Of a stretch of DNA of 64,000 bases, positions 3,160 through 52,220 are shown one piece after another (the first letter of the stretch is position 1; every line of letters starts with the position of its first letter). The notes below the pieces were generated by a model, which saw nothing but the letters and a program-made list of their open reading frames with translations, was not told the DNA's origin and made no database searches. This stretch comes from Halorubrum sp. 48-1-W (lineage in GTDB: Archaea > Halobacteriota > Halobacteria > Halobacteriales > Haloferacaceae): contig NZ_QMIM01000022.1 of assembly GCF_003287355.1 (NCBI RefSeq), forward strand, positions 1-64,000, given 5' to 3'. The translations under genes and the position numbers were made by a program.

Positions 3160-4575
3160 TCACGACCGTCCGGCCGGTTCCGAGTCGTCCTCCAACGTCC
3201 CGGTCTCTTCGTCGAACCCGTCGTCGTACCGCAGACACGCGATCCCGTGGTCCGGACCGACCGCGTACTCCGGCGGACGGTGGCGCTCGCACGGCGAGAC
3301 GAACGCCGAACCGAGCAGTTCCCCGGCCGCCCCTATCCGATCGTCGTAGAGCGCGTCGATCGCCTCGGCGAGCACCTCCTCCGCGTCGGCGTCCGGGAGC
3401 GTCCCCGGGAGGCCGAACTCCTCGCGGACCAGCCCGTCGAACGTCTCCCGTGACGCCTCCGTGGGGTCAGGCCGGGCCGCCGACTCGGCTCGGGTCGGAT
3501 CGTCCGCCCTCCCCGTCGGGTCGTCCGCCCTCCCCGTCGGGTCATGCGCCCGCACCGCCCCCCTCGTCGCCGTCAGGGACGTCACGTCGTCGGCGTTCGC
3601 CGCCCGCCGTGCCAGGGCTGTCACGGACCGCCAGAGGTCCGCCGGGAGGTCTGAGTCCGCGTCGGGGACGAGCCGCGGACACCGGGTGTGGAACCGACAG
3701 CCGGAGGGCGGGTCGATCGGGGACGGGACCGTCCCCGCGAGGCGGATCCCGTCGCCGTCCCACAGCGGGTCGGGTTCGGGGATCGCCGAGAGCAACGCCT
3801 CGGTGTACGGGTGGTGCGGCGGCCGGAACACCGCGTCGGTCGGCCCGCGTTCGACGAACTCGCCGAGGTACATCACGGCGACGCGGTCGGAGACGTGTTC
3901 GACCACGCGCAGGTCGTGGGCGATGAACACGTACGAGATGCCGAACCGCTCCTGGAGGTCCGAGAGCAGGTTGAGGACCTGCGACTGGACGCTCGCGTCG
4001 AGCGCGCTCACGGGCTCGTCACAGACGATCACCTCGGGCTCGACCGCGATTGCGCGGGCGATCCCGAGGCGCTGACGCTGTCCGCCGGAGAACTCGTGGG
4101 GGTAGCGGCCGGCGTGGCTCGCGTTCAAGCCCACGGTCTCCAACAGCTCTCGGACCCGCCCGGCGCGGTCCGCCCCCCCTGCGAGCCCGTGGACGTCGAG
4201 CGGCTCGCCGACGATCTCGCCGGCGGTGAGCCGGGGGTTCAGACTCGAGAGCGGGTCTTGAAAGACGTACTGGAGGTCCCTCCGGCGGTCGCGGAGCTCG
4301 GCGTTCGACAGCGTCGTCAGGTCCTCACCTCGGTAGTACACGGAGCCCGCCGTCGGCTCGATCAGCCGGAGCAGGCTTCGGGCGAGCGTCGTCTTCCCAC
4401 AGCCGGACTCGCCGACGACGCCGAGCGTCTCGCCCTCCCGAAGCTCGAAGCTCACGCCGTCGAGCGCCCGCACCCGCCGAGACCGCCCGAGCAGCCGGTC
4501 GAGGAAGCCGTCGGTCGAGTCGTAGTGCGTCTTCAGCCCCTCGACGCGGAGGAGCGGCTCGACGGGATCACTCAT
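3160..4575 (-). CDS. Dipeptide/oligopeptide ABC importer ATPase, DppF type
   Basis: The 471-aa cytoplasmic ATPase is the last gene of a five-gene importer operon. Motifs in order: Walker [11 protein letters not shown]-loop region 'QYVFQDP', signature [10 protein letters not shown], Walker B VIVCDEP. The oligopeptide-type C-terminal domain starts normally (CRFHTRCP), but its second half (CERHRPP...H..IACLRY) lies about 110 residues later. The intervening low-complexity insert includes a twofold 21-bp duplication (3500-3541). ATG 4575 overlaps the upstream stop by 8 bp; a GTG at 4584 is less likely. Confidence 0.93.
3500..3541. repeat. 21-bp in-frame tandem duplication in the DppF-type gene
   Basis: Two perfect copies of a 21-nt unit (starting tcgtccgccctccccgt) encode a repeated seven-residue D-D-P-T-G-R-A unit in the insert of the ATPase's C-terminal domain. 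Confidence 0.85.
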
Positions 4576-5635
4576 CGGGGCCACCCCCGTCGCGCCCGTC
4601 GGTCTCGTCCACGACCTCGACCGAGTACTCCAGCCCGCCGGAGAGGCCCTGCGTATACTCGAGACAGGCGGCCGCCCGGTCGCCGTCGAGCGTCGCCGGT
4701 TCGCCGGTCTCGGGGTCGACGAGGGCGGGAGCGGTCCGGGTACACGCCTCCTCGGCGAAGGGACACCGGGGATGGAACCGACAGCCGGGGGGCGGATCGG
4801 TCGGGTCCGGGGGCGTCCCCGGGATCGTGGAGAGCCGATCGGCGTCGTCGCCGAGACGCGGGATCGAACCCAGCAGCCCCGCCGTGTACGGGTGTTTGGG
4901 GTCGTAGTACAGCTCCTCGGTCGGCGCGGTCTCGACGGCCTCGCCCGCGTACATCACCATCGCCCGGTCACAGGTCCCGGCGATCACCCCGAGGTCGTGG
5001 GTGACGAGCTGGACCGCGACGTCGAACTCGTCGGCCAACTCGGCGAGCAGATCGAGGACCCGCGCCTGGACGGTGACGTCGAGGGCGGTCGTCGGCTCGT
5101 CGGCGACGACCAGGTCCGGGTCACACGACAGCGCCATCGCGATACCCGCCCGCTGGCACATCCCGCCGGAGAACTCGTGCGGGTGATCCGAGTACCGCGT
5201 CTCGGCCTCGGCGATCCCGACGCGGTCGAGCAGGCGGATCGCCCGGTCGCGGGCCGCGGAGGGGTCGTATCCCAGGTGGTGTTCGATCGTCTCGGCGATC
5301 TGCTCGCCGACGGTGTAGGCGGGGTTCAACGCGGCGCGGGCGTCCTGAAAGACCAGCCCGATCTGATCGCCCCGGACCGACCGGCGTTCGGACTCGTCCA
5401 TCGAGAGGAGGTCCTCGCCTTTGAACCGGACCTCGCCGCCCTCGATCCGCCCGGGGTCGTCGATCAGCCCGAGCACCGACAGCGCAGTAACGCTCTTTCC
5501 CGCGCCGCTCTCGCCGACGACGCCGAACGTCTCGCCGGCCTCGACCCGGTAGGAGAGCCCGTCGACGGCGGTCACGACCCCCGCCTCCGTGTGAAACCGG
5601 ACCGTCAGGTCCTCGACCTCGAGGAGGGCCGTCAC
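4568..5635 (-). CDS. Dipeptide/oligopeptide ABC importer ATPase, DppD type
   Basis: 355 aa. Walker [10 protein letters not shown], signature [10 protein letters not shown] and Walker [13 protein letters not shown] are intact. The C-terminal oligopeptide-type domain is canonical (GCRFHPRCP ... C ... AAACLEY), unlike its partner. GTG start overlapping the permease stop in a GTGA arrangement, which implies translational coupling. It would pair with the DppF-type ATPase under the two permeases. Confidence 0.94.
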
Positions 5636-6867
5636 GGGTCGTTACCCCCCCGATCCCCACGGTCTCCGCCGGCTTCCCGCCTCCCGGTTCCGCCTCGCCC
5701 GTCGCGGCCAACGCCGGCCGATCTCGCGTCCAGCGCGTCGTTGATCCCGTCGCCGATCACGTTCATCGACAGCACGAAGACGAAGATCGCCGCGCCGGGA
5801 TACACCGTCGCCCACCACGGGATCCGTCCGCCCGGGCCCTGTATCAGCGTCTCGCGCGTCGCGTCGAGCATCGTTCCCCACTCGGCGGTGCTCGGGTCCA
5901 TCCCGAGCCCGAGGAACCCGAGCGCGGCGACCCCGATCACGACGCTCCCGACGTTGAGCGACGCCAACACGACGAGCGACGACAGCGCGTTCGGCGCGAC
6001 GTGCCGCCCGATCACGGTACGGTCGCGCGCGCCGATCGCCTTCGCTGCCAGCACGTACTCACGTTCCGCGATCGACAACACCTCCCCGCGGACGATCCGG
6101 GCGTACCCGGCCCAGCCGAAGAGGGTGAACGCGACCACCAGTTGCCAGTAGCCGCCGCCGAGGGTGGCGACGACGACGAGCGCCAACACGAGCCCGGGGA
6201 ACGCGAATATCACGTCGACGATCCGCATCATGACCTCGTCGACGACGCCGCCGTAGTACCCCGAGACGGCCCCGTACGCCAGCCCGAACGACGCGGTCAG
6301 CCCGACGACGACGAAGCCGATAGAGATGCTGTACCGTCCGCCGACGAGGACCCGGGAGAACAGGTCGCGTCCCGAGCCGTCGACGCCCATCGGGAACCGC
6401 CACGACGGCGGGTCGTACGGGCTCACGCTCGGGTCGACTGAGAGGTAGAGGATCGTCGTCGGGTCGTAGGGCGCGAGCGCGAACGGCTGGACGACCACGC
6501 CGAAGACCTCGACGGGACGCGCGAGGACCGAGACGGTCGTCATCGCCACCACGACCGCGAGCGCGACCGTCGCCGAGCGGTTCCGTCGGAACCGGCGGAG
6601 CCCGCGTCGCCACCGGCCGGCGGTCGCGCCGCCGGTTCCGCCTGCCGTCCCATCGGTCCCGTCGTCCGTCCCATCGGTCCCGTCGTCAGCCCCGCCGTCC
6701 GGTCCGTCCGCCTCGCCGTCCGGTCCGTCGCCTCGCTCCGAGAGCGGGTCGCGGTCGCGGACGCGGTCAGCGTCGAACCCGGTGACTCGGAGCCGTCCCC
6801 GTCGATCGGTCCGACGGCGCGCCCGACTCTCCCCCGAGTCAGTCGCCCGATCGTCACCGTCAGTCAT
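5632..6867 (-). CDS. Dpp/Opp-type ABC permease, DppC type
   Basis: The 411-aa inner subunit carries the binding-protein-dependent transport domain with the EAA-like loop (around 'YVLAAKAIGARDRTVIGRH'). It is about 90 residues longer than usual because of an acidic cytoplasmic N-terminus of repeated Asp-Gly-Thr units, partly a 21-bp tandem duplication at 6646-6687. Start and stop overlap the neighbours by a few bases, so it belongs to the operon SBP-B-C-D-F. Confidence 0.92.
   Translation of the reverse strand: MTDGDDRATDSGESRARRRTDRRGRLRVTGFDADRVRDRDPLSERGDGPDGEADGPDGGADDGTDGTDDGTDGTAGGTGGATAGRWRRGLRRFRRNRSATVALAVVVAMTTVSVLARPVEVFGVVVQPFALAPYDPTTILYLSVDPSVSPYDPPSWRFPMGVDGSGRDLFSRVLVGGRYSISIGFVVVGLTASFGLAYGAVSGYYGGVVDEVMMRIVDVIFAFPGLVLALVVVATLGGGYWQLVVAFTLFGWAGYARIVRGEVLSIAEREYVLAAKAIGARDRTVIGRHVAPNALSSLVVLASLNVGSVVIGVAALGFLGLGMDPSTAEWGTMLDATRETLIQGPGGRIPWWATVYPGAAIFVFVLSMNVIGDGINDALDARSAGVGRDGRGGTGRREAGGDRGDRGGNDP
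6646..6687. repeat. 21-bp in-frame tandem duplication in the DppC-type gene
   Basis: Two copies of a 21-nt unit starting cgtcccatcggtcccgt encode repeated D-G-T-D-D-G-T residues in the acidic N-terminal tail. Confidence 0.8.
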
Positions 6868-7816
6868 AGCCGATCCTCGGGTCGAGTGCCGCGTACAGGA
6901 CGTCCGCGAGGAAGTTCGCGATGACGACGGCGACGGCGGTCACGAGCGTGATCGCCATCACGACGTTGACCTCCCGTCGATCGATCGCCTGGACGAACTC
7001 CGAACCGAGCCCGGGCCAGTTGAACACGCTCTCGACGACGACCGAGCCGGCGACGATGCCGGCGGTCAGCGTGGCAGCGAGCGTGACCACGGAGACGAGC
7101 GAGTTCCGCAGAGCGTGTTTGAACACGACCGTGCGCTCGGGTAGCCCCCTCGCTCGCGCGGCGGTGACGTACTCCTCGTTCAGCTCCTCGACCATCGCCG
7201 TCCGCAGGACGCGGGTGACGCTCGCGGCCGCCGCGGTCCCGATAGTCACCCCCGGCAGGAGGAGGTACCGAAGCGTCTCCGGGTGGTACAGCGGTAGCCG
7301 CGACGGGGGCAACACCGGGAACACCCCGAGGTACAGCGAGAAGACCAGGATCAAAACCAGACCGAGCCAGAAGTTCGGGACCGACACGCCCGACAGCGCC
7401 AGCACCCGGCTCGCGACGTCGCCGAGTCGTCCCTCGTGTACCGCCGCGTAGATCCCCGCCGGGATGGCGATCGCGATCGCGAACGTCCACCCGAAGAGCC
7501 CCAAGACGACCGTCTCGGGAAGCCGCCGCCACACGATCGCCGAGACCGCCCGCCCGGTCCGGAGCTCCCGCCCGAAGTCGCCGACGAGCACGTTCGAGAG
7601 CCACGCGAGGTACTGCCGCCACACCGGCCCCGAGAGCCCCCAGCGCTCGCGGAGCCGCGCCTCTTCGGCGGCGCTCACGTCCGGGTTCAACGCCACCAGC
7701 TGTGAGACGGGGTCGCCGGGGGTCAGATGGAACAGCCCGAAGGTGATCGCCGACACGCCGAACAGGACCGGAACCACGGAGAGCGCGCGCCGGAGGACGA
7801 ACCGTCTGAGACTCAT
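6860..7816 (-). CDS. Dpp/Opp-type ABC permease, DppB type
   Basis: The 318-aa permease has the family N-terminus (a first membrane segment followed by 'FHLTPGDPV'), five to six further hydrophobic segments, and the EAA loop 'YVTAARARGLPERTV' before the last segments. It begins 16 bp after the receptor gene and overlaps the next permease by 8 bp. It forms the translocation path with the DppC-type subunit. Confidence 0.94.
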   Translation of the reverse strand: MSLRRFVLRRALSVVPVLFGVSAITFGLFHLTPGDPVSQLVALNPDVSAAEEARLRERWGLSGPVWRQYLAWLSNVLVGDFGRELRTGRAVSAIVWRRLPETVVLGLFGWTFAIAIAIPAGIYAAVHEGRLGDVASRVLALSGVSVPNFWLGLVLILVFSLYLGVFPVLPPSRLPLYHPETLRYLLLPGVTIGTAAAASVTRVLRTAMVEELNEEYVTAARARGLPERTVVFKHALRNSLVSVVTLAATLTAGIVAGSVVVESVFNWPGLGSEFVQAIDRREVNVVMAITLVTAVAVVIANFLADVLYAALDPRIGYD

Positions 7817-7832: not shown

Positions 7833-9815
7833 TCACGAGGACTCGTCGTACTCGCCAGCCATCTCCTCGAGCAACTCCTCCGCGCGCTCGACGTCGTACT
7901 CGTTCAGCGGCCTCACGGCCGTCTCGAGCGCCTCGTAGTCGGCCGTCCCCGCCCCCCGGGCGATCCGCGGGATGGGCGTCCAGGCCGGCTCCGCCCAGCC
8001 GTTCAACACGTTGTCGACGATCCGCTGTCGGGGGATCAGGTGGTTGACCGCCTCCCGGAGCCGCGGGTCGTCCCACGGCTCGACGTTCACCGGGTACTGG
8101 AGGTAGTCGTAGCCGCCGGACGCGACGGCGTGGACGAGGAAGCCGTCGTCGTCGGCGAACTCGTCGAGCGTCGCGCTCGCGACGTCGTAGGTGAGGTCGA
8201 CCTCGCCGCTCCGGAGCGCGCCCGCCCGCGTCGCGTCGTCGGGAACGACCTCCACCTCGACGGCGTCGACGAGGGGACCGTCCGGGAACGCGTCGGGGCC
8301 GTCGAACCACTCGAACGCCTCGGCGACGCCTCGCTTCCCGACCCAGTAGTCGTCGAACCGCGAGACCTCGAGGTACTCCTCGTCGGCGAACTCGACGAAC
8401 TCGAACGGGCCGGTCCCGACCGGCGTGACCCCCTCGCGGGGGTCGATGCTCCCCTTCTCCACGTCGGCTATCTGGTCCGCGCTGAGGACGTAGACGCCCG
8501 GTAGCTCGCGCTCCGCCTCCGCGTCGGGGACCTGCGCGTACACGTCGACGACGTACTCGTCGACGGCGACGACGGCGAGCACGGAGTCGAACGTCTGCGG
8601 GGCGGTCGTCGAGTTCTCGTAGTACCCGTAGCTCGCGACGACGTCCTCGGCGGTCAGCTCGCTCCCGTCGTGGAACTCGACACCCTCCCGGAGCTCGTAT
8701 CGGAACCACATCCCGTAGGTTCCGTCCGCGGCCGCCTCGCGGGCGTCGTCGGGCAACAGCACGCGGACCTCGTCGTCGGCTGTGGGGTCGTCCTCGGGGT
8801 GGCGGACGATCACCTGTTCGTCGACGTCGACCGCGCCCTCCGCCGTGGTTCCCACGGAACGCATGTACCCCTCATAGGCCGTGCGGTCGACGTCCCGAAC
8901 GTCGCGAAGCTCGTAGCGCTCGGCGAGCCACGGGTAGACGTTCCCCTCGACGTCGTTCGCGACGAGCCCCTCGAAGAGGAGGTTCTGGACGACCGTCGAC
9001 GTCGTGTCGCTACTGTGTGGCGGATCGAAGGAGTCGGGGTTCGTCGAGACCGCGGCCGTCAGCGTCCCGCCCGACGTGAGGTCCGCGAGGTCGGAGTCGC
9101 CCGCCGGGCGTTCCCTGTCGATCCAGGCGACCTGTTCGTCCTGTGGGGAGAACAGGCCGTAGCCGAGGACGCCCTCCGGGAACGGCCACACCGCGAACCC
9201 GTGGACGTCCGCGGTGGTCACGGCGGTCTCCACGCCGAAGTGGGTGAAGGAGGTGTACCGCTCCTCGGCGAGCGTCCGCCATATCTCGTCGTACGTCTCC
9301 GCGCGGAGCCGTGAGTCCTCGACGACCTCGATCCCGTACCGGGCGGAGTCGAGCAGTTCGTCGAGTTCGGGGTCGGCGATCCCGCCCAGGTTACAGCACG
9401 CGCCGATATTCGCCGAGTTGTGGATCGCGTTACAGAAGCTGTGGGGGTTGAACGTCCCGGAGAGCCCGATCGAGGGGAGGTAGCCGTTGTCCTGGTACGC
9501 GGGGTTGATCACCCGGTCGAGGTACGCGCTCCACTCGTAGGTCTCGACCTCCGTCTCGAAGTACCCAGTCTGTTGAAGCGACTCCGCGATGAGTTCGACC
9601 ATCCGGATGCGCTCGTCCGTCCCGCCGGTCTCGAGACGAACCGAGAGGGGGAAGAGATCGCCGTCGTCATCGGACTCCGCGGACTCCGAGGGTTCGGTGG
9701 CCCCCTGCCCACCACACCCGGCGAACCCGGCGGACCCCGCAGCCCCGATCGTCGCGAGGAGGTTCCGCCGGTCGAGTCGCCGACTGCAGTCGGCGACTCT
9801 GTGTCGGTCTGCCAT
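7833..9815 (-). CDS. Dpp/Opp-family substrate-binding lipoprotein with permuted domain order
   Basis: The 660-aa receptor has a twin-arginine-like signal (RR at 16-17) and lipobox FAGC (Cys34), so it is predicted to be membrane-anchored outside the cell. Residues about 57-220 resemble the C-terminal third of E. coli DppA (LSVRLETGG, then VETYEWSAYLDR, then LDELLDSAR). The block normally found at the mature N-terminus (TLTAAVSTNPDSFDP) starts only at about 251, and the protein ends at the helix 'AEELLEEMAG' that normally precedes the C-terminal third. This order is a circular permutation. ATG 9815 fits a TATA box at -27; ATG 9827 is an alternative. First gene of the operon. Confidence 0.9.
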   Translation of the reverse strand: MADRHRVADCSRRLDRRNLLATIGAAGSAGFAGCGGQGATEPSESAESDDDGDLFPLSVRLETGGTDERIRMVELIAESLQQTGYFETEVETYEWSAYLDRVINPAYQDNGYLPSIGLSGTFNPHSFCNAIHNSANIGACCNLGGIADPELDELLDSARYGIEVVEDSRLRAETYDEIWRTLAEERYTSFTHFGVETAVTTADVHGFAVWPFPEGVLGYGLFSPQDEQVAWIDRERPAGDSDLADLTSGGTLTAAVSTNPDSFDPPHSSDTTSTVVQNLLFEGLVANDVEGNVYPWLAERYELRDVRDVDRTAYEGYMRSVGTTAEGAVDVDEQVIVRHPEDDPTADDEVRVLLPDDAREAAADGTYGMWFRYELREGVEFHDGSELTAEDVVASYGYYENSTTAPQTFDSVLAVVAVDEYVVDVYAQVPDAEAERELPGVYVLSADQIADVEKGSIDPREGVTPVGTGPFEFVEFADEEYLEVSRFDDYWVGKRGVAEAFEWFDGPDAFPDGPLVDAVEVEVVPDDATRAGALRSGEVDLTYDVASATLDEFADDDGFLVHAVASGGYDYLQYPVNVEPWDDPRLREAVNHLIPRQRIVDNVLNGWAEPAWTPIPRIARGAGTADYEALETAVRPLNEYDVERAEELLEEMAGEYDESS

Positions 9816-9838
9816 GCGGTGAAACATCCCCCCGCCGG

Positions 9839-9846
9839 TATAATAT
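9839..9846 (-). promoter_or_regulatory. TATA box of the first Dpp operon
   Basis: An ATATTATA box is centred about 27 nt before the ATG at 9815. This spacing predicts a leaderless mRNA starting at that ATG and argues against the ATG at 9827, which would lie too close to the box. Confidence 0.75.
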
Positions 9847-9953
9847 GTTACGGAGGAGTACCCGACCGCCGGCCGTCCCCGACGAAGCGACACGTCCGCG
9901 TCGTGGCCCCGTCCGCGTCGTGGTCCCGCCGTTCAGCATAATTCGAGGTGGAG

Positions 9954-46332: not shown

Positions 46333-48051
46333 ATGGTTAGGTCAGACGCGGACATGAGACGACGCGACTTCCTGAAAGCGACTACCGCCGGCGGAACGGT
46401 CGGCATCACGGCCCTCGCCGGCTGTTCCGGCGGCGGCGGTGGCGGCGACGACGGCTCCGGCGACGACGGCTCCGGCGACGACGGCTCCGGCGACGACGGC
46501 TCCGGCGATGACGACGGGTCCAGCGGCGAGAGCAACCTCCCGACGTACACCTACACCAACAACGCACAGAGCTACAACCCGCCGCGACACGACGCGATCA
46601 ACCTCATCGCGAGCCAGTTCGACGAGGAGATGGGCCTCGACATCGAGGTCGACGTGCTCGAGTGGGGGACGCTGTTCAGCCGCGTCTCCGAGGAGTACGA
46701 CTACAGCTTCGCGACGTGGCACACGTTCTTCGTCACGGAGCCGGTGACCGAGCTGGACAACCTGCTCAACTCCGGCAACACCGGATCGGGCGACGGCAAC
46801 TACTCCGGCTACGAGAACGAGGAGCTCGACGAGCTGATGGGCAACTACCTGGCCGAGCCGGACGCGGACACCCGGATCGAGCAGTGCCACGAGATCCAGC
46901 GGAGCATCGTGGACGACGCGCCGATGATGCCGATCACGCACATGCCGATGCTCGGCGTCTACAACAACGAGCAGAGCAGCAACTGGGAGCCGGACCTCGC
47001 GACCGGGTTCAACTCCTACTGGACGATGATCAACCTGGAGATGGAGGGCGGCGAGGATACCCTGAAGGGGTACTGGCCGGAGACCCTCTCCACGATGAAC
47101 GTGCTCGGCCACAACGGCGAGAACAAGCACGTCTACCAGTTCAACATGATGTACGACTACCTGGTCCAGCTCAACGCCGACGCCGAGCCGGCCCTGGACG
47201 TCAGTCTCGCGACGGAGATCGACCGCGTCGACGAGACCACGGTCGAGTACACCATCCGGACGGACCACTCGTGGCACGACGGCGAGGACCTCACCGCCGA
47301 GGACGTCGCGTTCTCGTACAACTACATCGTCGAGAACGAGGTTCCGTACTACTCCACGCAGACGCAGTACCTCGAGGGCGCAGAGGTCGTCGACGAGGAG
47401 ACGGTCCGGATCAACATGTCCGAGCCCTTCGGACCGTTCCAGCTCGGCATCGCGAACCTCATCCCGATCATCCCCGAGCACAAGTGGGCCGACCGCGACA
47501 ACCCGAGCCAGCAGGACATCGAGGAGCCGGTCGGCAGCGGTCCGATGATGTTCGACTACTGGGAGGAGGGCAGTGAGTTCGGCATGACGAAGTTCGAGGA
47601 CCACTTCGCGCCCGTCGACTTCGATCGACGCTTCTGGCGCGTCATCCCCGAGGCGTCGACCGTCTGGGACAACCTCCTCGAGGGCGAACTCAACTACGAG
47701 CCGTTCGGCCGGCTCGACCGCCAGCTCAACGAGAACCAGGACGAGGACGTCATAACCGTCGAGTCCGAGCTCGCCCCGACCTTCTGGCACTTCACCGCGA
47801 ACGAGCGCGAGGAGGGACTCGACGACCCCGTGCTCCGCAGGGCGCTGTACGAGGCCATCCCGCGGACGCCCATCGTCGACCAGATCCTCTTCGGCTTCCC
47901 GGAGCCCGGCTTCAACATCGTGTCGCCGGCGTTCGGTCCGCTCCACACCGAAGACGTAACGGAGTACGAGGAGAGCGTCGAAGCCGGGCGTAGCCGCCTC
48001 GAGGAGGCCGGCTACAGCTACGAGGACGGCGCGCTCCAGGCACCCGAATAG
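46333..48051 (+). CDS. Dpp/Opp-family substrate-binding lipoprotein with permuted domain order
   Basis: 572 aa. Tat signal MRRRDFL (8-14) and lipobox LAGC (Cys31), followed by a Gly/Asp/Ser linker made of four 15-bp repeats. Residues about 69-205 match the usual C-terminal third of SBP_bac_5 (DIEVDVLEWGTLFSR, NYSGYENEELDELM, DDAPMMPITH). The segment normally near the N-terminus, WHDGEDLTAEDVAFSYNY, sits at 314-331, and the protein stops at 'SRLEEAGYSYEDGALQAPE', the place where normal proteins enter the C-terminal third. This is the same permutation as in the receptor at 7833. Confidence 0.92.
   Translation: MVRSDADMRRRDFLKATTAGGTVGITALAGCSGGGGGGDDGSGDDGSGDDGSGDDGSGDDDGSSGESNLPTYTYTNNAQSYNPPRHDAINLIASQFDEEMGLDIEVDVLEWGTLFSRVSEEYDYSFATWHTFFVTEPVTELDNLLNSGNTGSGDGNYSGYENEELDELMGNYLAEPDADTRIEQCHEIQRSIVDDAPMMPITHMPMLGVYNNEQSSNWEPDLATGFNSYWTMINLEMEGGEDTLKGYWPETLSTMNVLGHNGENKHVYQFNMMYDYLVQLNADAEPALDVSLATEIDRVDETTVEYTIRTDHSWHDGEDLTAEDVAFSYNYIVENEVPYYSTQTQYLEGAEVVDEETVRINMSEPFGPFQLGIANLIPIIPEHKWADRDNPSQQDIEEPVGSGPMMFDYWEEGSEFGMTKFEDHFAPVDFDRRFWRVIPEASTVWDNLLEGELNYEPFGRLDRQLNENQDEDVITVESELAPTFWHFTANEREEGLDDPVLRRALYEAIPRTPIVDQILFGFPEPGFNIVSPAFGPLHTEDVTEYEESVEAGRSRLEEAGYSYEDGALQAPE
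46444..46503. repeat. 15-bp tandem repeat, four units, in the lipoprotein linker
   Basis: ggcgacgacggctcc is repeated four times without change and encodes a G-D-D-G-S linker after the lipobox. Confidence 0.92.
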
Positions 48052-48123: not shown

Positions 48124-49107
48124 ATGGGAAAAGCTAGCTTCGTTGTCAGACGCACGCTCCAACTCGTCGTGACGTTGTGGGCGGTCGGAACCGTACTGTT
48201 CGGGCTGTTCAGGCTCATGCCTGGCGATCCGACGTCGTACGTCATTTCCTCGGGGATGACCCAGGAGGCCCGGAACAAGCTCATCGAGAGCTACGGGCTC
48301 AACGACCCGCTGTACGTCCAGTACTTCAGGTTCCTCGAGAACCTCGTCGTGTTGAACTTCGGCCAGTCGTTCCACTCGAACCAGCCCGTCACCGACATCA
48401 TCGCGACGTACATGCCGAACACGCTCGTGTTGATGCTGACGGCGTTCGTCATCGCGTACATCCTCGGCATCACGCTCGGCGTGTTCTCGGGGTGGTACCG
48501 CGGCTCCCGGTTCGAGCGGAGCACGGTCATCACCGCGCTGACCGCCCGGAGCGTGCCGACCTTCTACGTCGGGCTCATCGTTCTGTGGATCTTCGGCGCC
48601 GAACTGGGGGTCATCCCGATGAGCGGCATGACCAGCCTGGGGACGGGCGGACAGAGCACCGGGTTCTTCGATATGGTCTTCACGGTCGACTTCCTCAAAC
48701 ACCTCATGGCGCCGGCGGCCGTGCTGGCGTTCTACTACATGGGATACCCGCTCTTGATCATGCGGACCAGCATGCTCGAGGTGCTCTCCGAGGACTTCAT
48801 CGACGTCTGCCGGGCCAAGGGGCTCACGGAGCGGACGATCATGTTCAAACACGCCGCTCGCAACGCGCTCTTGCCGATCATCACGGCGGCCGCGATCGCC
48901 CTGGGATACGCCGTGGGTGGGAGCGTCCTCATCGAGACCGTGTTCGCGTGGCCGGGAATCGGTCGGGAGATGGTCCGTGCGGTCCTTCGGCGCGACTTCC
49001 CCGTCGCACAGGGGACGTTCATCGTGCTCGCGTCGACCATCATCTTCCTGAACTTCATCGCCGACCTCGCGTACGGCTACCTCGACCCACGCGTGACTTA
49101 CGACTAG
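48124..49107 (+). CDS. Dpp/Opp-type ABC permease, DppB type (second system)
   Basis: 327 aa, six predicted membrane segments. N-terminal 'LFRLMPGDPTSYVIS' and EAA loop 'FIDVCRAKGLTERTIMFKHAARNALLP' are typical. It starts 72 bp after the receptor; downstream gaps are 4 bp or less, so the permease-ATPase genes are one unit. Confidence 0.95.
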   Translation: MGKASFVVRRTLQLVVTLWAVGTVLFGLFRLMPGDPTSYVISSGMTQEARNKLIESYGLNDPLYVQYFRFLENLVVLNFGQSFHSNQPVTDIIATYMPNTLVLMLTAFVIAYILGITLGVFSGWYRGSRFERSTVITALTARSVPTFYVGLIVLWIFGAELGVIPMSGMTSLGTGGQSTGFFDMVFTVDFLKHLMAPAAVLAFYYMGYPLLIMRTSMLEVLSEDFIDVCRAKGLTERTIMFKHAARNALLPIITAAAIALGYAVGGSVLIETVFAWPGIGREMVRAVLRRDFPVAQGTFIVLASTIIFLNFIADLAYGYLDPRVTYD

Positions 49108-49111
49108 ACCA

Positions 49112-50092
49112 ATGGCCCAAGAAGAACAATCGACCGGGTCGATATACACCGACCTCGACGACAGCGGCTCCGACGAAGAGATCAACAAGTGGGAGCGGAC
49201 GGCCCGCCTCTGGCGGGAGACCCTGAAGGAACACTGGGCGAAGCTGACCGACGAGCTGTCGGTCAAGCTCTCGATGCTCACCGTGGCAGCGTTCATGGTC
49301 ATCGCGGTCTTCGCGCCGTTCATCGCGACCCACAGGCCGCTCGAGCGCCAGTACCAGGGTGACGCCGGCATCATCCAGGCGAAGTGGGCCGAACCCTCGC
49401 TGCTCGGCGGGGACACCGAGTACCTCCTCGGAACGACCGCCGAGGGGTTCGACATCTTCAGCCAGCTCGTGTACGGCACGCGCGCCGCGCTGTTGGTCGG
49501 GCTCATCGCCGCGATCTTCACCGCCGGCATCGGCACGCTCGTCGGGCTCGTCGCGGGCTACTACGGTGGGAAGGTCGACGACGCGCTGATGCGGATCGTC
49601 GACTTCCTGTACGGGATGCCGCTTCTGCCGACGGTCATCGTCCTCGTCGCGGTGCTCGGCCCCGACCTCTGGAACATCATCCTCGCGCTGATCATCCTCC
49701 AGTGGCGCTCGACCGCCCGCGTCATCCGTTCGCAGTCGCTGTCGTTACGTGAGCGGCCGTTCGTGAAGGCCGCGGAGGTCGCCGGCGCCGGCGACTGGCA
49801 CATAATCAGCAGACACCTCGCGCCCAACGTGCTCCCGATGACGTTCCTCTACGGATCGTTCGGGATCGCGTGGGCGATCCTCGCCGAGGCGGGCATCTCG
49901 TTTATCGGCCTCGGCGACCCCAACACGGTCTCGTGGGGAACGATGCTACAGGCCTCCCGGGCCTACTCGGCGCTCTCGTTCGGCGCCTGGTGGTGGTTCG
50001 TGCCGCCGGGGATCTGTATCGGCCTGCTCGTCATCAGCGGCTTCCTCATCGGCCGTGGCTACGAAGAGATCACTAACCCCAAGATACAATGA
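49112..50092 (+). CDS. Dpp/Opp-type ABC permease, DppC type (second system)
   Basis: 326 aa. An N-terminal cytoplasmic region of about 50 residues precedes TM1; the EAA-like loop 'FVKAAEVAGAGDWHIISRHLAPNVLP' is clear. The stop overlaps the next gene's ATG (ATGA). Less extended at the N-terminus than the first system's DppC. Confidence 0.94.
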   Translation: MAQEEQSTGSIYTDLDDSGSDEEINKWERTARLWRETLKEHWAKLTDELSVKLSMLTVAAFMVIAVFAPFIATHRPLERQYQGDAGIIQAKWAEPSLLGGDTEYLLGTTAEGFDIFSQLVYGTRAALLVGLIAAIFTAGIGTLVGLVAGYYGGKVDDALMRIVDFLYGMPLLPTVIVLVAVLGPDLWNIILALIILQWRSTARVIRSQSLSLRERPFVKAAEVAGAGDWHIISRHLAPNVLPMTFLYGSFGIAWAILAEAGISFIGLGDPNTVSWGTMLQASRAYSALSFGAWWWFVPPGICIGLLVISGFLIGRGYEEITNPKIQ

Positions 50093-51129
50093 GTCAACTG
50101 GAAGTCGAAGACCTCGAAGTCTACTACGAAACCGAGGAGGGGCCGGCACAGGCGGTCGACGGCGTCTCCTTCGAACTCGAAGAGGGCGAGAACCTCGGCG
50201 TCGTCGGAGAGTCGGGCTGTGGAAAGACCACGCTCGCGAAGGCGATCATCGGGATCCTCCCCGACGCCGGCTACATCAACGGCGGGAGCATCAACTTCAA
50301 GGGTGAGGACCTGACGGAGATGACCACCGCCCAGCGGCGTCGCCTCAAGTGGGAGGAGATCTCCATGATCGCCCAGTCGGCGATGAACTCGCTGGACCCG
50401 GTGTACACCATCCGCGAACAGATCGTGGAGGCCATCGAGACGCACCGCCCCGGAACCGGTCGCGTCGAGTCCGACGAGATCGTGACCGAGATGTTCGAAC
50501 TCGTCGGCCTCGACCCGGACCGCGCCGACGACTACCCCCACCAGTTCTCCGGTGGGATGCGGCAGCGGGCCATGATCGCCATGGCGCTCGCGCTCGAGCC
50601 GTCGTTGATGTTGGCGGACGAGCCGACCACGGCGCTCGACGTGATCATGCAGGACCAGATCCTCAAGCGGATGAGCTCGATCCAGGAGGAGATCAACTCC
50701 TCCATGCTCGTGATCACCCACGACGTGAGCGTCGTGGCCGAGACCTGCGACCGCGTCCTCGTGATGTACGCGGGGAAGGTCGCGGAGGAGGGCCCCGTCG
50801 AGGAGATATTCGGCCAGCCGTATCACCCGTACACGATCGGGTTGAAGCGTGCGTTCCCGAACATCATGAAGACCGACCAGGACCTGCTTTCGATCGCGGG
50901 CTACCCGCCCGAGCTGATCGACCCGCCGCAGGGGTGCCGGTTCGCCGAACGGTGTCCGATGGCGACCGACAGGTGCCGCGAGGAGGAGCCGGAGGCACAC
51001 TACAACAACGAGCTCCGCTCGTACTGCCACTACGCTGACGAGATAGACACCGAGCTCCGGCCGTACGCGGACGACCCGGGGACGTGGAGACAGACCGCCG
51101 CCGCCACCGACGGGGGTCTCGAGGAATGA
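50089..51129 (+). CDS. Dipeptide/oligopeptide ABC importer ATPase, DppD type (second system)
   Basis: 346 aa. Walker [10 protein letters not shown], signature FSGGMRQRAM, Walker [14 protein letters not shown] normal oligopeptide C-terminal domain ('GCRFAERCPMATDRC...ELRSYCHY') is present. The stop overlaps the partner ATPase ATG. Confidence 0.95.
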   Translation: MSQLEVEDLEVYYETEEGPAQAVDGVSFELEEGENLGVVGESGCGKTTLAKAIIGILPDAGYINGGSINFKGEDLTEMTTAQRRRLKWEEISMIAQSAMNSLDPVYTIREQIVEAIETHRPGTGRVESDEIVTEMFELVGLDPDRADDYPHQFSGGMRQRAMIAMALALEPSLMLADEPTTALDVIMQDQILKRMSSIQEEINSSMLVITHDVSVVAETCDRVLVMYAGKVAEEGPVEEIFGQPYHPYTIGLKRAFPNIMKTDQDLLSIAGYPPELIDPPQGCRFAERCPMATDRCREEEPEAHYNNELRSYCHYADEIDTELRPYADDPGTWRQTAAATDGGLEE

Positions 51130-52220
51130 GCCGAAACGAAGTCCTGCTCGAGGTCGACGACCTGAAGAAACACTTCAAGGTCAACCAGGGCTGGATCGCC
51201 AGCCTGGTCGAGAGCTTCGGCAGGGGATCGCCCGACTACGTTCACGCGGTCGACGGCGTCAGCTTCGAGCTCCGTGCGGGGGAGACCCTCGGGCTCGCCG
51301 GCGAGTCCGGCTGTGGGAAGACGACCACCGGCATGTCGCTGGTGAAGCTCCACGACCCGACCGCCGGCGACATCGTCTACGACGGCACGCGCCTCTCGGA
51401 GGCGAGCGACGAGGAGGTCAAGCAGTTCCGTCAGAACGCGCAGATGATCTTCCAGGACCCCTTCGAGAGCCTGAACCCGCGGATGACGGTGTACGACACC
51501 GTCGCCGAGCCGCTGCGGATCCACAACATCCGCAACGAGACGGCGCGGGTCCAGCGCGCGCTGGAGTTCGCGGAGCTGCTCCCGCCCGAGCAGTACTTCA
51601 ATCAGTACCCCCACGAGCTGTCCGGCGGGCAGCGCCAGCGGGTCGCCATCGCGCGCGCGCTCGTGCTCGACCCGGACTTCATCGTCGCCGACGAGCCGGT
51701 GTCGATGCTGGACGTGAGCCTCCGTGCCGGGGTGTTATCGCTCCTCGACCGGATGACCGACGAGTTCGGCCTCTCGGTCGTCTACATCAGCCACGACCTC
51801 TCGCTACTCCGGCACATGTGTGACCGGCTGGCGATCATGTACATGGGCAAGATCGTCGAGAAGGGGCCGACCGATCAGGTCATCGAGAACCCACAGCACC
51901 CGTACACGCAGTCGCTCATCAACGCGGTGCCAGTTCCCGATCCCTCGGTCGGCCGCGAGCGGGTCGAGCTTCAGGGCGAGGTCGGCGACGTCATCGACAT
52001 CCCGACCGGGTGTCGGTTCAAGGCCCGGTGTTCGGAGTACATCGGCGACGTGTGTGACCAGGTCATCCCGCCGCTGGAGGCGAAGACTGACTTCGAACAG
52101 GACGTCGCCTGTCACCTCTACGACAGCGCGGAGGGATACGACCCCTACGAGGAGATGACCGGAACCCCGAGCGCGGCGGAGACGGGCGAGGAGCCCGAAT
52201 CCACGCCCGCGGACGACTAG
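51126..52220 (+). CDS. Dipeptide/oligopeptide ABC importer ATPase, DppF type (second system)
   Basis: 364 aa. Walker [10 protein letters not shown], signature [10 protein letters not shown], Walker [13 protein letters not shown]. The C-terminal domain '[16 protein letters not shown]...DVACHLY' is compact, without the about 110-residue insert seen in the first system. ATG 51126 within an ATGA overlap is chosen. Confidence 0.95.

Follow-up and report, generated by a model that had tools for sequence, protein, structure and literature searches.

The window analyzed in this study, a stretch of 64,000 nucleotides from the genome of Halorubrum sp. 48-1-W, contains at positions 46333–48051 of the forward strand a gene for a permuted family 5 substrate-binding lipoprotein. 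The encoded polypeptide has 572 amino acid residues and starts at either M1 or M8, the latter at position 46354. Its signal peptide (46354–46425) possesses a twin-arginine motif, RRDFLK, and a lipobox, LAGC, with Cys31; it was assigned from a weak TAT_signal match and from the positions of the motifs, of which the lipobox was read from the sequence. The signal peptide is followed by a Gly/Asp/Ser linker (residues 32–68, 46426–46536), which consists largely of 15-base tandem repeats coding for GSGDD. From 46426 to 46513 these repeats are nearly perfect, giving (GSGDD)n. In the homolog of Halorubrum cibi the linker is (GSSGDD)n, and both the unit and the length of the linker thus seem to change fast.

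The remainder of the polypeptide comprises two large segments. Residues 69–237 (46537–47043) correspond to the old C-terminal third of the family, approximately residues 344–507 of DppA, and residues 245–566 (47065–48030) correspond to the old N-terminal two thirds, DppA 1 to approximately 343. The old C- and N-termini are joined by a new internal linker, EGGEDTL (residues 238–244, 47044–47064), and the new C-terminal tail, ALQAPE (48031–48048), lies at the old loop between the helix LLxEAGY and the next strand. The motifs from which the preliminary description had read this order were all found in the open reading frame at the places given for them: DIEVDVLEWG at residues 103–112, YENEELDELM at 160–169, DDAPMMPITH at 194–203, WHDGEDLTAEDV at 314–325 and SRLEEAGYSYEDG at 554–566.

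The gene is the head of an intact dppBCDF operon of the Opp/Dpp type, which encodes two permeases and two ATPases on the forward strand: a DppB/OppB-type permease (48124–49107), a DppC/OppC-type permease (49112–50092), a DppD/OppD-type ATPase (50089–51129) and a DppF/OppF-type ATPase (51084–52220, as an open reading frame; translation may in fact begin at the ATG at 51126). The same gene order was found in H. cibi. The product of 46333–48051, hereafter the window substrate-binding protein (SBP), is very probably a circularly permuted surface lipoprotein that provides a Dpp/Opp-type ABC importer with its binding subunit. A second dpp-type operon of the window is on the reverse strand and is headed by another permuted SBP gene (7833–9893); its dppB-, dppC-, dppD- and dppF-type genes (3160–7816) were named by reading their translations.

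Chain order and predicted structure

PF00496 matched the window SBP in two stretches (whole-protein E value of 3.6e-52, 178.1 bits with a cut-off of 32.4), and its positions 6–283 of 368 aligned with residues 292–566. Similarly, phmmer searches against the PDB returned two swapped stretches for several solved proteins. Among them was AppA (1xoc), of which residues 49–348 aligned with residues 270–565 of the query and residues 359–484 with residues 71–199. No continuous PF00496 alignment in normal order covers the protein. Moreover, residues 69–237 match the canonical C-terminal third rather than an unrelated domain. Together, the two segments of the window SBP cover all of DppA, with residues 69–237 matching DppA 337–507 and residues 242–571 matching DppA 1–346. 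The cut is at approximately DppA 343/344, in a loop of lobe II that connects the helix EKAKALLKEAG to the strand FSIDLW. Given these swapped stretches, the window SBP is filed as a permuted variant of PF00496/cluster C: all parts of the two-lobed fold are present, but not in the order in which family 5 arranges them along the chain.

Residues 65–572 were also modeled with AlphaFold2 (AF2), using 56 permuted relatives as the input alignment. The model was one confident fold with a pLDDT of 93.4 and a pTM of 0.91. In model numbering, residues 170–508 superimposed on AppA 18–357 with a Z score of 23.9 and residues 178–507 on DppA 1–346 with a Z score of 21.7. None of the PDB chains among the top matches listed, which VIA-align compared on Foldseek's candidates only, was colinear with the whole model. 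The best TM-score among the matches listed, normalized by model length, was approximately 0.54, as expected if one third of the chain cannot be aligned in order. When folded alone, the old C-terminal piece (model residues 1–174) had a pLDDT of 85.7, and it matched DppA 337–507 (Z score of 11.0) and residues 356–521 of 5u4o (Z score of 11.3). The fold predicted for the window SBP is that of cluster C and is intact. Its swapped order is far beyond chance. The circular permutation put forward in the preliminary description, in which the old ends are joined and new ends are made, is upheld by PF00496, by phmmer and by the predicted structure.

It is scarcely credible that an ordinary colinear SBP was misread or that the order is an assembly artefact. 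The genome of the window is a draft of 69 contigs, which leaves room for the latter, but independent assemblies with the same order number in the hundreds and include complete replicons. A misreading of a colinear SBP is ruled out, as no colinear alignment was found with PF00496, with phmmer or among the PDB chains listed and the AF2 model is confident.

If the window SBP works like other SBPs, it would bind its solute in the usual cleft between the lobes, dock on its permeases in the same way and hand the solute to DppBC. The lipid tether would enter at lobe II rather than at lobe I. In canonical DppA and OppA both ends of the chain are in lobe I, so the old N- and C-termini could probably be joined easily and the permutation tolerated. 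In DppA structures, Asp408 is the residue that binds the peptide amino group. In the one alignment inspected, the residue aligned with Asp408 is not Asp in the window SBP or in its bacterial relatives. As the equivalent of Asp408 is not kept, ordinary dipeptide binding by the window SBP appears doubtful.

Distribution of the permuted order

The order of the segments in each relative was read with a pair of profile HMMs, which represent the old C-terminal part and the old N-terminal part, respectively. Among 216 family members, 101 were permuted and 115 were canonical; the controls OppA, DppA and NikA of E. coli were all canonical. In the genome of Halorubrum sp. 48-1-W, 6 of the 10 family 5 proteins were permuted. 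The survey of haloarchaeal SBPs showed that the swapped order is common in haloarchaea, as at least 149 of the 194 Halobacteria genomes had a permuted SBP, and these represent at least 54 of the 65 genera. The counts are lower bounds because the broad surveys scored only a few first-look candidates per genome. When the whole phylum was sampled, the 13 genomes with a permuted SBP all belonged to the window's own taxonomic order.

Permuted SBPs were also found outside the haloarchaea, where their occurrence is scattered. In the phylum of a Trueperaceae MAG, they were identified in 12 of 111 genomes. In the phylum of Aliihoeflea and in that of a Nitrososphaeria MAG, 1 of 299 genomes and 1 of 151 genomes, respectively, had one, and in both cases the sole match was the query's own genome. 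Others were identified by name in Halomonadaceae, Natronospirillum, rhizobial relatives, Roseomonas and Ketogulonicigenium as well as in a Spirochaetaceae MAG and a Symbiobacterium MAG. In database records, permuted SBPs are simply called 'ABC transporter substrate-binding protein'.

The mode of anchoring varied among the permuted SBPs. The bacterial proteins L064 and L070 have seemingly cleavable signal peptides without a lipobox. In L085 and L166 of the Nitrososphaeria MAG the chain ends with a stalk and a membrane helix, which places the anchor on the new C-terminus. Tethering was considered as a general cause of the permutation; it does not fit the first two proteins, which seem to be soluble, or the latter two with their C-terminal membrane helix.

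Number and route of the order changes

In the tree of the N segment, the main permuted clade, which includes the window SBP, held 54 of 63 rows with an SH-aLRT of 94, and the remaining permuted proteins nested elsewhere. Forcing all permuted proteins into one clade cost 257 log-likelihood units (p-AU of 1e-35). A clade uniting the main clade and the second window SBP's group was also rejected (p-AU of 1.2e-5), as was one made up of those permuted groups of haloarchaea that lie outside the main clade (p-AU of 9e-5); the groups for these AU tests were picked after the first tree, so the p values should be read with caution and the size of the difference is the stronger point. A more careful tree with more canonical relatives required 7 order changes, and a single origin was recovered in 0% of its 200 bootstrap trees. 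Moreover, the proteins of a Natrialbaceae group (L116 and L203) as well as L216 and L218 were cut one helix earlier than the rest. Thus, the order has changed several times independently in the cluster C family. Some of the changes on the trees could be reversions.

That one clade takes in most permuted proteins and that most of them use the same loop might also suggest one ancient permutation, with the canonical proteins nested among the permuted ones as reversions. Such a history is highly improbable. It would need equally many rearrangements, and it is at odds with the rejection of a single clade in the AU tests, with the earlier cut of the Natrialbaceae group and with the group of L220 and L013, in which the basal branches are canonical and the tips are permuted.

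An independent permutation event is evident for the second SBP of the window (7833–9893, reverse strand). Its canonical counterpart, L220, is a haloarchaeal protein from the same taxonomic order of archaea as the window. Residues 272–691 of the second SBP, the old N-terminal part (7860–9119), were 60% identical to residues 104–517 of L220, and residues 88–274, the old C-terminal part (9111–9671), were 61% identical to residues 519–706. The signal regions of the two proteins were linked by a weaker match. By this comparison, the chain was cut between residues 517 and 519 of L220, and the old last residue, 706, was joined to approximately residue 104. L220 ends with WLDRE and its mature part starts with DREEVDFANLREGGTL; the join in the second SBP reads WIDRERPAGDSDLADLTSGGTL, as would be left if the mature part had been duplicated and then trimmed. 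A bacterial pair of this kind is formed by permuted L118 and canonical L230, with identities of 58% and 50% over the two segments. In addition, the old N-terminal part of L013 is interrupted between its first strands (approximately residues 345–405) by an insertion of roughly 60–70 residues. An insertion at the same place was found in L049, L052, L220, L222 and L227, in canonical and permuted members alike, and further ties this haloarchaeal subfamily together.

A general mechanism of natural circular permutation is tandem duplication followed by trimming. Each event in this family probably began when the mature part was duplicated in tandem and in frame downstream of a single signal peptide, after which the first N-terminal part and the last C-terminal part would have been lost. 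The exact joins and cuts, the one retained signal peptide and the congruent trees fit this route. Different from the general case, the change recurs here within one family, and canonical and permuted members are approximately 60% identical. Adjacent canonical SBP genes that are 67–74% identical were found in Halorussus and in a Chloroflexota genome. The adjacent canonical SBP genes at L191, L197 (2799–3997 adjoining 946–2859) and L246, which are 67–74% identical to each other, are recent tandem duplicates. The existence of such tandem genes means that the raw material for permutation is at hand. No double-length intermediate with two C segments in one open reading frame was found among the open reading frames of all loci analyzed, and no repeated C segment was found among the 216 proteins classified.

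Tandem SBP genes also bear on a different explanation, in which the permuted gene is a chimera of two SBP genes, one having supplied the leading C-terminal piece and the other the N-terminal part that follows it, for fusion of the end of one gene to the start of the next would produce the same order. We consider such a chimera improbable. The C segments, for which a separate tree was built, showed the same nesting as the N segments, which indicates that the two segments of any one protein have a common history. The segments were also about equally close to one canonical relative (60 and 61% for the second window SBP, and 58 and 50% for L118). A paralogue chimera was thus unsupported by the C-segment tree, to which the old clade of the window SBP itself may be an exception. 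No close canonical relative of that clade was found, so its event must be old and its route cannot be traced.

Relation to known binding proteins

AppA (1xoc), DppA (1dpp), OppA and NikA, which are cluster C proteins of PF00496, have the same fold as the window SBP and are homologous to it over nearly the whole chain. Canonical cluster C SBPs likewise share their operons with two permeases and two ATPases. Different from them, the window SBP has the part equivalent to DppA 344–507 before that equivalent to 1–343, and its tether would be at lobe II. All matches listed for the window SBP, by sequence as well as by structure, were proteins of cluster C, a fold class different from that of cluster B.

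A permuted cluster B SBP is known from Treponema pallidum, Tp0684/TpMglB-2, for which the name 'Type Ic/Cluster Bc' was proposed (PMC4990184). Glucose binding and a change of shape were shown for Tp0684, and its authors suggested tethering as the reason for the permutation (PMC4990184). Similar to the window SBP, Tp0684 is a naturally permuted, lipid-tethered ABC substrate-binding protein. It has, however, a cluster B (Type I) fold and another cut site, and is an independent case; its permutation was described for one family of sugar-binding proteins (PMC4990184). The preliminary description had named no earlier report of a permuted cluster C SBP, and our search of the open-access literature found none either, nor one for a haloarchaeal SBP.

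What had been described for a single protein proved to be common in haloarchaea, to reach bacteria, to be shared by the SBP of another operon in the window and to have more than one origin. Few nutrient receptors of prokaryotes are as widespread as cluster C binding proteins, whose permuted forms are read as ordinary or truncated proteins by profile-based annotation. Few natural circular permutations are known that have close canonical relatives, and the before-and-after pairs identified here are natural material for studying how proteins can be rewired. We suggest tentatively, as a possibility that we hold to be rather unlikely, that natural circular permutation has a hot spot in the cluster C fold, where one or two neighboring loops of lobe II were cut in several independent events in archaea and bacteria, and that the permuted form was kept because chain ends and a tether at lobe II usefully change folding, export or docking. 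The repeated origin in one family, and twice in one window of 64 kb, raises the question of why this fold and why this loop.
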